64,000 nucleotides of DNA from Desulfoscipio geothermicus (GTDB lineage Bacteria; Bacillota; Desulfotomaculia; Desulfotomaculales; Desulfallaceae), in NCBI GenBank assembly GCA_016841205.1, contig JAENZP010000011.1:1-64000 (forward strand), in the 5' to 3' direction. The notes below the pieces were generated by a model, which was not told the DNA's origin, did no database searches, and was given only the letters and a program-made list of their open reading frames with translations. Shown in pieces: positions 10,227 to 32,314 of the stretch. A program made the position numbers and the translations under genes. Position 1 is the first letter of the stretch. The number at the start of each line of letters is the position of its first letter.

Positions 10227-10697
10227 CTACAAACGAAGGGTTGCAATTAATCGTTTAGGCCGCAGCAGCAGGTCCAGGCCATCAGTGATTTCTTTTACCG
10301 CTAGATCGGCGTTTTGCAGTGCCTGCACGGAGGTTCCTTCCGGTCCTAATATGACAATACCCAAGGCTGCTTTCGCCAGCATCAGCCTATCGTTGGCTCC
10401 ATTGCCTATCGCCACGGTAAACTCCGCTCCCAGTGTTTCAACATAGGCTTCTTTTGCTTCACCCCCAACCGGCTGGGACAGGATATGAACTATACCGTTG
10501 ATGTCTTTGCACTCACTCTGGCACTTACCGAAGGTGTCAGCAGTTAGTATGTGTACCTCCAGACTCTTGCTAAGCTGGTTTAAACCCTCCTCGACTCCGG
10601 TTAGCAGTAAACCGTCTTTGGCTATCGTGCCATTGTAATCCACCACGATGTATTTGAGCTGCAGCGTACCGCGGCCGGGTATATCCACTGAAATCAA
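10227..10697 (-). CDS. HAD-family hydrolase, soluble P-ATPase-like
   Basis: 156 residues of the HAD superfamily. The nucleophile motif is DYNGTIA (Asp about 20), motif II is LTADTFG, and the acidic motif is GNGANDRLML. The absence of a membrane domain and the similarity of the motifs to the phosphorylation/hydrolase unit of P-type ATPases place it with the small stand-alone 'ATPase P' proteins, presumably phosphatases of unknown substrate. It lies downstream of the true P-type ATPase gene on the same strand, but a terminator (10889-10916) separates them. Confidence 0.75.
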   Translation of the reverse strand: MISVDIPGRGTLQLKYIVVDYNGTIAKDGLLLTGVEEGLNQLSKSLEVHILTADTFGKCQSECKDINGIVHILSQPVGGEAKEAYVETLGAEFTVAIGNGANDRLMLAKAALGIVILGPEGTSVQALQNADLAVKEITDGLDLLLRPKRLIATLRL

Positions 10698-10978: not shown

Positions 10979-13501
10979 TTATTTTTTTACTTGCTTTTTC
11001 ACAAGCTTCACAAAATCATACCACAATACAGATACTGCTGCGATACCCAAGGCTGTGAAAAGCTGTCCGATTGTAAGAGGCGAAAACTTTAAAAACTCAT
11101 GCAATGGGGTATACAGAAGTAACAGCGTCCCAACAATCGTTCCAATATTAACCACCCACATCACCTTATCCTTTGCAAGTCGTTTTACAGATTGAACCAC
11201 AAAGTCGTGGTCAGAGCTGTTAACCTGTACCAGGAACAGGTTGGCAAGAATAATAATTACAAGGCCCATTGTACGAGCAAGCGGTGCATCATTAGGATTT
11301 TGATAAAGTATTAAATAGTAAGCTCCAAAGGAAGCCAAGAAGATTATGATACCCTGCAACCCACTCTTAAGTAGAGTTCTTGCATTCAAAATATTTTCTC
11401 TCGGATTACGAGGCTTTCTCTCCATAATGTCAGTTTCTGCAGGCTGACGCTCTAACACTATAGAACATGTAGGATCAATAACCAGTTCCAGCAATACCAC
11501 ATGGAGAGGAAGTAAAAATAAGTTTGCTGGATAAACACCTAAGATCGGTGCCAGCAATGAAGAAAAGGCAATAGGAATGTGAATGGTGAACACATAACCT
11601 ACCGCTTTGCGAATATTATCATAAATCCTCCTACCATCCCGAATTGTATGGACAATAGTAGAAAAATTATCGTCCATCAAAATAAGGTCAGCTGCTTCGC
11701 GTGATACCTCCGAGCCTCGTTTGCCCATAGAAATACCAATGTCCGCATATTTCAAAGCCGGTGCATCATTGACGCCATCACCTGTCATTGCTACAATTTC
11801 CCCGTTCGCTTTAAATGACTTGACGATACGCATTTTATGCTCAGGTACCACACGGGAAAAAATATTGACCTCTTTGACTTGCTCCTGCAATTCTTCGTCG
11901 GTCATGTTATTAAGTTCATCACCTGTGATGATATTATCGCTGTTTGGCATTCCAATCTGCTTTGCGATGCTGCTGGCGGTAATACCGTTGTCTCCTGTAA
12001 TCATAACAACACGCACACCGGCTTTCGTACACTGTTTTATGTCTTCTTTGACAGATTCTCTGGGAGGATCAGCAAGCCCGATTAAGCCGCAGAGAGTAAG
12101 CGTACAAGCTGTAAGCTGGGTTGGAATATCGCCTTTGCTTACAGGCTTCATAATACCAACAGCAATCACTCGAAGACCTTGTTTTAACATGTCAAGAAGT
12201 TTAGCTTCTGCCTCTTTACGCTCGATATCATTCAGATTGCAGATAGCCAGAATTCGTTCAGGAGAACCCTTTGCCGCAATGATGATTTCATCATCATGTT
12301 TCCAGACATGCCCCATCATTTTCAATTCGTTAGTAAAAGCATATTCTGTGATCAACTCGCCGCCAAAAAGATGCTCTTTAGTAATGCCTAACTTCTCACA
12401 ATAAGTAAGCATTGCTTTTTCCATAGGGTCATAGGTATCAATTTCACAGCCAAGTCCCATAGTTTCACATAGCTTCATATTATCATTATCTACTGCCCAG
12501 ATATCACGAACCGTCATTTGGTTCATCGTAACGGTTCCTGTTTTATCTACACATAGCACAGAAACAGCACCTAAGGTTTCAACAGATGGCAACCTGCGCA
12601 CCAAAGACTGCTGTTTGGCAAGTCTCCATGCCCCCATAGAGAGGAAAACTGTCAAGATAACAGGAAATTCTTCCGGAATCATTGCCATAGCAAGGGTAAT
12701 ACCGGAGAGAATGCTTTCAATCAGCCGGTCGCCAAATGTATGGTCAGGGATATTAAACCAGGTAATAAATCCTACAGACGCAAACAAAACAGCAGCAATG
12801 CCGGCACAAAGCTTAACAAGACTTTCGGTTTGTTTTTGCAAAGGCGTAGGAGATTCCGGTGCAGACGCTATATTTGCACCAATTTTCCCGTATTCTGTGG
12901 CAACTCCGATTTTATCAACGAGCACATACGCGCTGCCTTGTGTTACCAAGGTTCCGGCATAGCAGTAATCCTTGCGCCAATAATCGGAAGAAGGTTCGGC
13001 ATTTTCAACGGTGGTTTTCCAAACGCCTTCCGCTTCGCCGGTCAGAGAGGACTCATCCACACATAGATCGCTTGCTTTTACTACCTCTCCATCAGCAGGA
13101 ATTTTTACACCTTCGGAAATCAGCATAAGATCGCCGGGCACTAAATCGCTACTTGCAACGACAATTTCTTTTCCGTCACGTATGACTGTGCTATGAGGTG
13201 CGGATAAGTCTTTAAGTGCATTTAGTGTTTTGTCGGTTTTCCATTCCTGTATCACATCAATACTGATTACACCGACCACAAAAATTAGCATAATTGCGCC
13301 GTCACGCGGTTCCCCAAGAATAAAATAAATGATTGCTGCCACAATAAGCAGTAAAAACATTGGCTCACAAACGATGTGAAGCACTTTACTGAAAAAGCTT
13401 TCTTTTTTCTTTGGGGTCAGTTCGTTTTTCCCATACCGTTCCTGACGTTTTCGGGCTTCATCGCTAGTCAAGCCCTGCAGGATTGTTTCTTGTTCTATCA
13501 T
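10979..13501 (-). CDS. Cation-translocating P-type ATPase, probable Ni2+/Co2+ exporter (NiCo riboswitch-controlled)
   Basis: 840 residues with a complete P-type layout: cation_ATPase_N (1-70), paired helices, A domain (LTGEAE), and M4 with PEEFP at 276-280. Phosphorylation site Asp319 lies in CVDKTGT, the hinge is TGDGVNDAPALK, and a four-to-six-helix C-terminal domain follows. By overall type it resembles Ca2+ ATPases, but M4 has PEEFP where Ca2+ pumps have PEGLP. The 5' leader is a NiCo riboswitch (13595-13735), which normally controls Ni/Co efflux genes, so I infer export of those ions rather than Ca2+. GGAGG lies 9 nt before the ATG. Confidence 0.85.
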   Translation of the reverse strand: MIEQETILQGLTSDEARKRQERYGKNELTPKKKESFFSKVLHIVCEPMFLLLIVAAIIYFILGEPRDGAIMLIFVVGVISIDVIQEWKTDKTLNALKDLSAPHSTVIRDGKEIVVASSDLVPGDLMLISEGVKIPADGEVVKASDLCVDESSLTGEAEGVWKTTVENAEPSSDYWRKDYCYAGTLVTQGSAYVLVDKIGVATEYGKIGANIASAPESPTPLQKQTESLVKLCAGIAAVLFASVGFITWFNIPDHTFGDRLIESILSGITLAMAMIPEEFPVILTVFLSMGAWRLAKQQSLVRRLPSVETLGAVSVLCVDKTGTVTMNQMTVRDIWAVDNDNMKLCETMGLGCEIDTYDPMEKAMLTYCEKLGITKEHLFGGELITEYAFTNELKMMGHVWKHDDEIIIAAKGSPERILAICNLNDIERKEAEAKLLDMLKQGLRVIAVGIMKPVSKGDIPTQLTACTLTLCGLIGLADPPRESVKEDIKQCTKAGVRVVMITGDNGITASSIAKQIGMPNSDNIITGDELNNMTDEELQEQVKEVNIFSRVVPEHKMRIVKSFKANGEIVAMTGDGVNDAPALKYADIGISMGKRGSEVSREAADLILMDDNFSTIVHTIRDGRRIYDNIRKAVGYVFTIHIPIAFSSLLAPILGVYPANLFLLPLHVVLLELVIDPTCSIVLERQPAETDIMERKPRNPRENILNARTLLKSGLQGIIIFLASFGAYYLILYQNPNDAPLARTMGLVIIILANLFLVQVNSSDHDFVVQSVKRLAKDKVMWVVNIGTIVGTLLLLYTPLHEFLKFSPLTIGQLFTALGIAAVSVLWYDFVKLVKKQVKK

Positions 13502-13594
13502 AAAAAAGTTACCTCCACTTTGCCTTTCGGCTGATTAAGATAGCTCTACGGCACTTCATAGACTTTTAACAACTAATGTTCCGAATAGGAGTAT

Positions 13595-13735
13595 AAAAAA
13601 ACACACTTGTGGAACATACTACTGTCCCACAAATGTGTTAAAGTACACCATTTGCTGCCGTTAGGTTACGGCCCAGCCCCAGGAACCTTTGGCAAGGTCC
13701 CTCGCCTGCTCAGTTTGTACTGTAGATTTATATGC
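13595..13735 (-). promoter_or_regulatory. NiCo riboswitch (czcD motif) with intrinsic terminator
   Basis: The minus strand carries ACTGAGCAGGC (13714-13704), GGGCTGGGCC, CGGCAGCA and then ATTTGTGGGACAGT (ending 13621). These are the ordered conserved blocks of the cobalt/nickel-sensing czcD RNA. The 3' part forms a terminator: ACACATTTGTGG pairs with CCACAAGTGTGT and is followed by seven U (13601-13595). Metal binding is known to favour readthrough in this class. A second copy controls the CDF gene at 32175-32285. Confidence 0.88.
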
Positions 13736-13755
13736 AGTGCAAAGAGTTCTTGTTA

Positions 13756-13784
13756 TTGTAATACATGTTTATACCGTATGTCAA
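13756..13784 (-). promoter_or_regulatory. Promoter of the P-type ATPase/riboswitch transcript
   Basis: TTGACA (13784-13779), a 17-nt spacer and TTACAA (13761-13756) on the minus strand, about 25 nt before the aptamer. Confidence 0.6.
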
Positions 13785-13831
13785 GTTCGTCTTATGTATT
13801 TCAGGACTATATAAAACATACCTTAACGAAA

Positions 13832-14233
13832 TTATTCCACATGGACCCCGATTGCGATCAGAATAAGAACAGCAATTGTTCTATGCATCAAAAGCCATGT
13901 TCCACCTCTTTTTTTTACCTTACTTCCGTATATACCAAGCCCAACCTGCAAAAGCATGATTCCTGCTGCAATTACCCCGGTAGTATTCAGGCCGTATTGA
14001 CTAAATTGGATCAAAAAGTGCAGAAGCAAGAAGGCGATCGTCAATACACCAAATAAATTATGCCTTTTTACAATGAATTTCATAAATTTAGTAAAGGAAC
14101 TATATAATTTTTCATTTATTATTAATTCATTTCGATATTTCTTATAGATGAATTTAACTAAATAATTTAGAATTGCTAATAAATATAATAATACAGTGAT
14201 ACTGCCAAAAAGACTTCCTATTTCCTTAAACAC
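13832..14233 (-). CDS. Four-helix membrane protein, cytochrome b561/ferric-reductase-like
   Basis: 133 residues with four hydrophobic helices (about 10-28, 60-80, 87-105, 113-131). Histidines sit on three of them: KRHN and LLHF on or near helix 2, LMHR and GVHVE around helix 4. This fits bis-His b-type haem binding as in ferric-reductase-like or b561-type membrane domains (inference). It has no flavin domain. The start is GTG, with GGGAGG 8 nt upstream. Family not firmly identified. Confidence 0.55.
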   Translation of the reverse strand: MFKEIGSLFGSITVLLYLLAILNYLVKFIYKKYRNELIINEKLYSSFTKFMKFIVKRHNLFGVLTIAFLLLHFLIQFSQYGLNTTGVIAAGIMLLQVGLGIYGSKVKKRGGTWLLMHRTIAVLILIAIGVHVE

Positions 14234-14582
14234 ATAAAAACCTCCCTTCGTATTAAATTTTTATGCAAGTGTTATAATTAAATACCTGAAATTATCATTG
14301 ATGGCTATTTATAGCAATATAAGCGAATACACTTCCTCCAGAGCGATAAATCTAGACCACCAGAAAAAATCCATCCTGGAAAATAGAACCGCAAACAATG
14401 CTGCCATTATTGGAAAAGAGGCGTGGCTTGAAGTTAAACAGCAGGACAAAAGCCAATGGAAGAAGACGACCTGGAAGTTGACGTTATACCCGGCCCAGGC
14501 GCTCGGCTACCTGGGCCGCTTGCTCCTTGATTTTCTTGGGCATTTCCCGGCCCAATTGCGGATCGTTAAGTCTCCGCTTCCT
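14234..14582. other. Intergenic region with a minus-strand coding relic
   Basis: No intact gene. Just after the PiT stop, the minus strand stays open for about 33 codons ending PKKIKEQAAQVAERLGRV-stop (14490-14580), without a start or binding site. This looks like the tail of a lost gene. Its end contains a 9-bp inverted repeat (14491-14499 with 14510-14518) that might act as a weak terminator for the PiT transcript. A plus-strand frame over this region runs into the PiT gene antisense and is not credible. Confidence 0.35.
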
Positions 14583-31214: not shown

Positions 31215-32132
31215 TTATGGACGGTGTTCCTGTTGCTTGATATTACCATTAATCGGTTGTTCTTCTTCGCTGACAGGATCTATATGTATATTTACCCGCG
31301 TGTTTCTAAACTCTTCCCACATAGCCTTTTTAAGGCACCCAATAATTTCATGTATTTCTAAAGCCGTAGCATATTGGTCAACAGTAATATGAAAATCGAT
31401 ATGTTTCATATTACCTGATTTTCGAGTCTTAAGCTTGTGAAAACCCTTAAATTTATCGCTATGTTTTTCTATAACTTTTATTATTTGGGCTTCTTCTGCA
31501 TCTGCCAACTTTGTATCCAAAAGATAATCAAAGGCATTTTTACACAGCTCCCACGCTTCTTTGATGATAAGCAGGGCAACCAAAATAGCTACAATTGGAT
31601 CAATTATATGCAGTCCAGTTAGTTTAATAAGCACCAGGCCAACGGCTACCCCAAAAGATGTATAAACATCAGTTTTCAGGTGTAAGGCATCTGCCTCAAG
31701 GGCCATCGAATCCTCTTCACGGGCAACCTTATATAACTTTCTTGAGACCAGAAGATTTATTAAGGATGCACCTAACATAACTGCAATAGCCAGGGTAGTC
31801 TGTTCAATTTCAACAGGTGCATAGATTTTGTTGATAGCTTCCTTTAAAATCATTCCGGCCGCAATAAAAATTAAGAGGCCTTCGGCTATGCCGGAGATAT
31901 TTTCTATCTTACCATGACCGTAAGGGTGCTCCCGATCGGCGGGTTTGGCGGACTGTCTGACGGAGAAAAACGATATAAATGATGCAATTAGATCCATTCC
32001 CGAATGGATCGCTTCCGAAATGATACTTACTGAACCGCTTAATATGCCTGCTATAACTTTTAAAATTATTAGTGTTGCATTGGATATAATCGATAATAGC
32101 GCAACTCTAGCCCTTCTGTCCCAGGATCCCAC
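31215..32132 (-). CDS. Cation diffusion facilitator (CDF) exporter, probable Ni2+/Co2+
   Basis: 305 residues with six membrane segments and a cytoplasmic C-terminal domain (about 210-295). Metal-site sequences are EAIHSGMDL in helix 2 and HLKTDVYTS in helix 5, giving HxxxD at both positions, and HPYGHGKIE lies between them. CDF proteins exchange metal for protons. The NiCo riboswitch leader (32175-32285) argues for cobalt/nickel as substrate. The start is GTG, with AGGAGG 8 nt upstream. Confidence 0.88.
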   Translation of the reverse strand: MGSWDRRARVALLSIISNATLIILKVIAGILSGSVSIISEAIHSGMDLIASFISFFSVRQSAKPADREHPYGHGKIENISGIAEGLLIFIAAGMILKEAINKIYAPVEIEQTTLAIAVMLGASLINLLVSRKLYKVAREEDSMALEADALHLKTDVYTSFGVAVGLVLIKLTGLHIIDPIVAILVALLIIKEAWELCKNAFDYLLDTKLADAEEAQIIKVIEKHSDKFKGFHKLKTRKSGNMKHIDFHITVDQYATALEIHEIIGCLKKAMWEEFRNTRVNIHIDPVSEEEQPINGNIKQQEHRP

Positions 32133-32174: not shown

Positions 32175-32285
32175 AAAAAACATCTGTAGAACATTCTACT
32201 GTCCCACAGATGTTGCATCTGCTGCCGTCGCCAGCCCGGCCACATGAACCCATACAAGTGTTCATAGCCTGCTCAGTTTATACTG
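32175..32285 (-). promoter_or_regulatory. NiCo riboswitch (czcD motif) with intrinsic terminator
   Basis: On the minus strand: ACTGAGCAGGC (32277-32267), GGCCGGGCTGG, GCGACGGCAGCAGATG and ATCTGTGGGACAGT, in the same order as the copy at 13595. The 3' hairpin (32212-32181, CATCTGTGG with CTACAGATG) is followed by UUUUUU (32180-32175). CDF genes are the type target of this riboswitch class. Confidence 0.92.
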
Positions 32286-32314
32286 TAGATTTATATGCAA
32301 AGAAATTATTAATT

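Follow-up and report, generated by a model that had tools for sequence, protein, structure and literature searches.

Known targets of the NiCo (czcD) riboswitch class (RF02683) include P-type ATPases, and P-type ATPases that carry transition metals are mostly of the P1B type. The C. difficile pump CD2503, which we take to be a P2A pump of the PEGLP type, is likened here by description only to the pump studied below. Like its lactococcal orthologue, CD2503 is a P-type ATPase behind a metal riboswitch, but the RNA class differs, being the Mn riboswitch (PMC11477304, in the parts used here). In Listeria a NiCo RNA apparently controls a PfeT-like P1B exporter that confers Fe(II) resistance (PMC7689651, likewise in the parts used here). 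We analysed a stretch of 64,000 nucleotides from Desulfoscipio geothermicus (contig JAENZP010000011.1, positions 1 to 64,000; hereafter the window), in which a NiCo riboswitch precedes the gene of a P2-type-like P-type ATPase with the motif PEEFP in membrane segment M4. This pump is not of the P1B type of its Listeria counterpart. With the P2A Ca2+ ATPases of the PMR1/SPCA/LMCA1 type it shares the domains, ∼30% identity and, in a model of moderate quality, the fold, but its family differs from them in ion-site residues, in scores below the family cut-offs and in its side of an unrooted tree. A transition metal, rather than calcium, is probably what the family of NiCo-linked pumps exports, and for the NiCo-linked members metal export is well supported by sequence comparison.

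The leader matches the RF02683 model over its full length (1–96) at 73 bits, where the gathering score is 37 (cmscan, Rfam 15), and the E-value (Table 1) rules out a chance match. The RNA itself does not stand apart from described NiCo riboswitches, with which it shares the full-length match, the conserved G-rich cores and the overlapping terminator, but the controlled gene is here a P2-like ATPase and not czcD. As candidates for the conserved guanines at the metal-binding junction, G50–G52 and G96–G98 (numbered by the first alignment row, not by the crystal structure) are invariant in 22 of 22 aligned NiCo RNAs. By a cruder string check, GGGC is present in 87 and GGGA in 93 of 95 NiCo RNAs. 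The terminator-like hairpin, read from 13639 to 13600 on the reverse strand with the tail TTTTTATACT, has a 5' arm formed by the last 20 nt of the aptamer, an arrangement as in an ON switch. Terminator-like sites in 13500–14300 number 2 on both strands together, versus 0.3 per shuffle. Minimum-energy folding gives the isolated aptamer a 3' helix of its own, which is lost to the hairpin in a longer transcript. The original prediction of a NiCo RNA and an overlapping intrinsic terminator in front of a type II-like P-type ATPase with PEEFP in M4 is borne out by the covariance search, the hairpin search and the translated reading frame. Its sigma-A promoter is a close match at a fitting position, but promoter-like sites are equally common by chance (3 found versus 3.7 per shuffle), which leaves the position as the argument for it.

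The linkage between leader and pump is systematic. Among the nearest ATPase loci in GTDB genomes (best 80 of 319, 69–89% identity), which come mostly from clostridia but also from Sphaerochaeta, Dehalococcoidia, Holophagales and Bathycorpusculum metagenome-assembled genomes (MAGs), 75 carry an intact NiCo leader, and a coincidence at one locus is ruled out by this number. Rfam at its own threshold detected the leader in 70 of 76 loci (20/20, 19/19, 16/20 and 15/17). Our own covariance model, built from 22 such clostridial NiCo RNAs, added four loci outside the Rfam scan (L079, L081, L082, L084) and one below the Rfam threshold (L073). In L071 a run of N interrupts the leader with the 3' part of the aptamer still visible, and L085 has 25 bp of upstream sequence at a contig edge. 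A strict finder placed the start of a terminator within the aptamer in 66 of the 74 leaders examined (L094 lies outside this count). Clustering of 1000 neighbouring open reading frames (ORFs) from the 80 loci gave no common partner gene. One group of 10 loci is antisense to the leader; the next largest clusters, one of a kinase-like ORF and one of an ArsR-type regulator, comprise 8 loci each.

The same linkage was found across the phylum in a sample of 398 genomes, which includes the window's own and may overlap with species of the nearest 80. The ATPase search (E <= 1e-135) returned 45 matches, and two candidates were scored per genome, so that leaderless members were possibly missed in both searches. 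The leader precedes 21 of the 22 testable PEEFP ATPases and 0 of 21 other P2-type ATPases; before the latter it was absent even at E <= 5, with at least 755 bp upstream of each gene and the last 500 bp ahead of the start free of N, and Rfam reported only tRNAs at 19 of these 21 loci and at an Enterococcus gilvus locus discussed below. PEEFP ATPases of 57–100% identity have the leader in 14 of 15 genomes, the fifteenth (G165) showing an aptamer that starts and runs into N. At 39–46% identity it is present in 5 of 8 genomes, the other three offering only 156, 25 and 6 bp of upstream sequence. A second query from this more distant group added only G148 and G441, both with leader, which the first protein search had missed and which were known from the RNA side. 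The fragments G303 and G283, known only via their RNA, stand outside the 21 of 22.

A census from the RNA side gave a matching picture. Every NiCo RNA over the gathering score, minus the two of the window, was collected (n=95) and its longest downstream ORF typed: 59 stand before cation diffusion facilitator (CDF) genes, 28 before P-type ATPases and 8 before neither. Of the 28 ATPases 27 are of the PEEFP type, with no PEGLP or P1B type among these 27, and the remaining one (L131) is cut off by the contig end ahead of M4. Among the eight RNAs before neither type, L138 and L161 lie at contig ends, L013, L015, L122 and L123 have a kinase-like ORF close by, L022 has other ORFs and L174 has a CDF gene further downstream.

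The ATPase carries the superfamily motifs DKTGT at 319 and GDGVNDAP at 574, scores 281.6 with TIGR01494 (cut-off 62.3) and contains the domains E1-E2_ATPase, Cation_ATPase_N and Cation_ATPase_C. Curated models place its subfamily outside the named Ca2+, Mg2+ and P1B families. A P1B heavy-metal ATPase was rejected because TIGR01525 scores 249.4 (cut-off 346.25) and M4 has PEEFP in place of a CPx/SPC-type motif, and an MgtA-type Mg2+ ATPase because TIGR01524 scores 327 (cut-off 610.75). In favour of Ca2+, the site residues E277 and D676 are kept, the PMR1-type Ca2+ ATPase is the best-scoring curated model (522.8 bits), and SPCA1 and the Listeria Ca2+ pump are the top matches in a fold search with an AlphaFold model, a result that only confirms the P2 fold. 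However, all three Ca2+-ATPase models are missed (PMR1 type, 522.8 versus 798.3; SERCA type, 417 versus 703.4; PMCA type, 370.7 versus 507.05), the leader is specific to the PEEFP clade in the phylum sample, and residues of the ion site are replaced. A plain Ca2+ pump was rejected on the missed cut-offs and the altered site, and we regard a Ca2+ pump that came under a metal riboswitch incidentally as very improbable.

The ion site was compared in an alignment of 92 relatives of at least 57% identity (a few leaderless ones included), 12 Bacillota relatives of 39–46%, 11 plasmid relatives and 24 other P2 ATPases, with near-duplicates present in both the >=57% and the 39–46% sets. M272, E278, H641 and C679 occur in 115 of 115 family rows and in 0 of the 24 others; E278 was partly a criterion for sorting the rows, while M272, H641 and C679 are independent of it. 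E672 is found in 112 of the 115 family rows, again versus none of the 24. The other P2 rows have V at 272, N at 641, P at 679, N at 672, E at 644 and T at 675, and at the last two positions family rows carry I, in rare cases V or M. The residues E277 and D676 are retained in the ATPase, and a few family rows have an incomplete PEExP (277 is S in one and N in one, 280 is A in two). As SERCA ligands we assume E309, N768, E771, N796, T799 and D800; in this presumed numbering N768 has become His and N796 Glu, with E309 and D800 kept. The P2A set of Ca2+ ligands is incomplete in the family, as H641, I644, E672 and I675 replace the N, E, N and T of all 24 others. The exchanges also hold against LMCA1, the solved Listeria Ca2+ pump, which has V, A, N, N and P where the family has M272, E278, H641, E672 and C679. 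Ion sites that contain His and Met are characteristic of transition metals and not of Ca2+. Judged from the alignment, the Ca2+ site of this family is rebuilt with His, Glu, Met and Cys.

In a quick maximum-likelihood tree (unrooted, 71 rows) 50 family rows and 21 other P2 rows lie on opposite sides of a branch with 100% support in the Shimodaira–Hasegawa-like approximate likelihood ratio test (SH-aLRT). On the family side the NiCo-linked rows fall into two separate parts, and in one of these they are interspersed with leaderless plasmid relatives. The deep branching order is uncertain, as the tree program flagged long branches (Chryseobacterium and others). PEEFP also occurs in plasmid relatives from Sphingobium, Novosphingobium, Sphingomonas and Mesorhizobium, and at these plasmid loci our own clostridia-trained model, the one used for the search there, detected no NiCo leader. 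Because PEEFP is present in rows in which no leader was detected, PEEFP alone does not mark a NiCo regulon or Ni/Co. The earlier proposal of PEEFP as a specificity signature holds in part: the motif marks the NiCo-linked ATPases of the Bacillota sample but is shared by the leaderless plasmid relatives, and the set of residues that distinguishes the family is larger, comprising M272, E278, H641, E672 and C679. Two of the 12 annotated plasmid relatives lie beside CDF genes and/or CzcA/CusA genes of the resistance-nodulation-division (RND) type. On the Janthinobacterium plasmid CzcA-type RND genes, a CDF gene and the ATPase gene are consecutive on one strand, and on the Chryseobacterium plasmid RND genes extend from the third gene upstream of the ATPase onward. 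Gene context outside the clostridia is mixed, and metal export by the wider clade is no more than suggested by it. A Simkania match with RND genes is a PEGLP pump and was not counted.

The window contains a second NiCo RNA, absent from the original prediction, in front of a CDF gene (Table 1), and the two are the sole matches in the whole 36-contig genome. With one NiCo RNA before the ATPase and one before the CDF gene, exporters of two different types are coupled to the switch in this genome. Pfam found no metal-related neighbours in the window (a PHO4 transporter and a sub-threshold DUF4405 were seen). The CDF protein has the metal motifs HxxxD and HxxxD, and not the DxxxD that, by a rule we assume, marks Mn CDFs. 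This speaks against a pump for mainly Mn2+ or for divalent ions broadly (Fe, Mn, Co, Ni, Zn), a reading that we consider improbable even with Mn-riboswitch P-type ATPases as precedent; no Mn riboswitch was seen in the 76 of 80 nearest loci scanned with Rfam. Its published support is that the C. difficile ATPase behind the Mn riboswitch is an orthologue of a lactococcal Mn-protection protein (PMC11477304), that in E. coli Mn, Fe, Co, Ni and Zn activated a czcD RNA and that only Mn and one other metal are said to be sufficiently available for binding (both PMC7689651), but the Mn affinities of czcD RNAs are 11 µM and 220 µM (PMC7689651).

The published work on the class is conflicting and, in the parts of the reports on which we draw, leans to Fe(II). 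Under anaerobic conditions a czcD RNA has affinities of 61 nM for Ni, 120 nM for Co, 93 nM for Zn, 400 nM for Fe and 11 µM for Mn, and only Fe(II) and Mn(II) are considered able to bind it in the cell (PMC7689651). The Listeria P1B exporter apparently under a czcD RNA confers resistance to Fe(II) and some to Mn and Zn, but not to Co (PMC7689651). Calculated occupancy in aerobic E. coli is 74.6% for Fe, 9.7% for Mn and 0.01% for Co, and revising the documented selectivity to Fe(II) was called apposite (PMC9434800). The class has also been listed as Fe(II) riboswitches (PMC11477304), and all three sources describe a response to Fe(II) with cellular Co and Ni too scarce. Because of the anaerobic affinities, the availability calculations and the phenotype of the Listeria exporter, we favour Fe(II). 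The original prediction of Ni/Co export instead of Ca2+ export is supported in its rejection of Ca2+ by the missed cut-offs, the altered ion site and the NiCo linkage across the sampled Bacillota, while on Ni/Co as the physiological ion the literature just cited, itself conflicting, leans the other way.

On balance we find it somewhat probable that the leader is an ON switch for transition-metal export, with Fe(II) as the most likely ion and Co/Ni as secondary cargo. At low cytoplasmic Fe(II) (or Co(II)/Ni(II) in overload) RNA polymerase would halt at the hairpin. With metal bound, the aptamer would retain the 20 nt of the 5' arm, termination would be prevented and the ATPase made. The pump would then most likely export the metal that the RNA senses, in parallel with the CDF exporter whose gene follows the second NiCo RNA. 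More tentative, and in our estimate slightly short of an even chance, is the wider proposal that a P2-class subfamily annotated as calcium or 'cation' pumps consists of dedicated Fe(II) (transition-metal) exporters with a Met/His/Glu/Cys-rebuilt site, which would be under an iron-sensing czcD riboswitch throughout the anaerobic Bacillota and would have been transferred with the leader to Sphaerochaeta and, if the MAG is correctly binned, to a Chloroflexota lineage.

Several points weigh against this interpretation. For every member we infer the ligand, the direction of transport and the ion, and the case for Fe(II) is built on other RNAs of the class and on metal availability in E. coli. The same switch and pump with Ni2+/Co2+ as physiological ion is a reading that we think unlikely, but clostridial acetogens and syntrophs depend on Ni and Co enzymes, and the Janthinobacterium relative with its CDF gene and CzcA-type RND cluster fits it. 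For a czcD RNA from C. botulinum, in-line probing in air gave binding of Ni and Co at 6.5 and 13 µM but not of iron, and the same report calls the cognate metal unclear (PMC7689651, in the parts used). Reviews name Ni/Co first or alone in the sections used here (PMC9481103, PMC7266159). The anaerobic affinities, the occupancies and the Listeria phenotype, guarding against Fe(II) and not Co(II), speak against Ni/Co. The preferred Fe(II) interpretation also has to accommodate relatives that lack the leader, namely L091, L093 and L095 of the nearest 80 and the Enterococcus gilvus relative of 62% identity, which was searched with both Rfam and our own model. Moreover, 10 of the 12 plasmid relatives (from Enterococcus, Sphingobium, Novosphingobium, Nostoc, Mesorhizobium and Paraburkholderia, and two each from Sphingomonas and Variovorax) lie among stress, carbon-metabolism or unrelated genes; one Variovorax copy is near a copper ATPase and one Sphingomonas copy near molybdate transport genes. 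LMCA1 itself has Ala at 644 and Asn at 675, where SERCA-type rows have Glu and Thr, so that loss of Glu and Thr there does not by itself exclude Ca2+; LMCA1 nevertheless keeps both N. The AlphaFold model of the ATPase is moderate (predicted local distance difference test, pLDDT, 77.7; predicted template modelling score, pTM, 0.64).

Other observations concern the loci and their neighbours. A protein-kinase-like ORF of ∼240 aa recurs in NiCo-controlled loci (Pkinase, E 5e-26 and 4.3e-26 for the two tested). It lies behind the NiCo RNA in the four census loci named above, behind the ATPase gene in L070 (5901-6614), L075 (6042-6761) and L204 and behind the CDF gene in L174, at times with a small GSG/His-rich zinc-ribbon protein, and it is possibly an unrecognised member of the NiCo metal regulon. 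The ArsR-type regulator near the ATPase in 8 of 80 loci (L036, 5676-5999, and 7 others; HTH_5, E 3.4e-15 in the one tested) could be a second metal control or unrelated. The leaderless L091 (Bathycorpusculum MAG, archaeal, 69%) and L095 (Holophagales MAG, acidobacterial, 71%) group with a Chloroflexota MAG copy that bears the leader, a pattern of either gene transfer with leader loss or binning error. In G484 (C1:657701-660198; L207, L240) the PEEFP ATPase is in two pieces, with an in-frame TAA, and the NiCo leader is intact. The Acetobacterium locus L076 has molybdenum cofactor (Moco), fluoride and NiCo riboswitches within 2.6 kb (295-411, 1756-1815 and 2790-2884). In the window, a 156-aa ORF without Pfam match lies ∼280 bp behind the ATPase gene (10227-10697, reverse strand) and presumably resembles a soluble HAD/P-type ATPase-like protein.

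Table 1 Features of the two NiCo riboswitch loci in the window
Feature	Position	Strand	Evidence
P2-type-like P-type ATPase, 840 aa	10979..13501	-	PEEFP 276-280 (M4), H641 (M5), E672/D676/C679 (M6), DKTGT 319
GGAGG ribosome-binding site, 10 nt before ATG	13512..13516	-	direct sequence reading
Intrinsic terminator hairpin, 17 bp, loop 6, then T run	13600..13639	-	hairpin search; minimum-energy folds
NiCo (czcD) riboswitch aptamer	13620..13723	-	Rfam RF02683, 73 bits, E 5.2e-15
Sigma-70/sigma-A-type promoter match TTGACA-18-TACAAT	13755..13784	-	11/12 consensus matches
CDF (cation efflux) transporter behind second NiCo RNA	31215..32132	-	PF01545 E 1.4e-53, PF16916
Terminator hairpin, 15 bp, overlapping second aptamer	32179..32214	-	hairpin search
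Second NiCo riboswitch aptamer	32197..32286	-	Rfam RF02683, 72.8 bits, E 5.9e-15

The NiCo RNA belongs to a known class. In the literature searched, which did not cover the original papers on the class, we found neither the near-exclusive link of NiCo RNAs to one P2-like clade nor the rebuilt site, and the sole match to the string 'PEEFP' was unrelated and dated 1811. Both may already be partly described in those original papers. If our interpretation is true, the family would show, in a form open to testing, how the scaffold of a calcium pump was adapted to transition metals, and a likely misannotation of a P2-like clade as calcium or cation pumps would be corrected. The locus would also be a natural setting in which to ask if iron or Ni/Co is what the czcD RNA detects inside cells.

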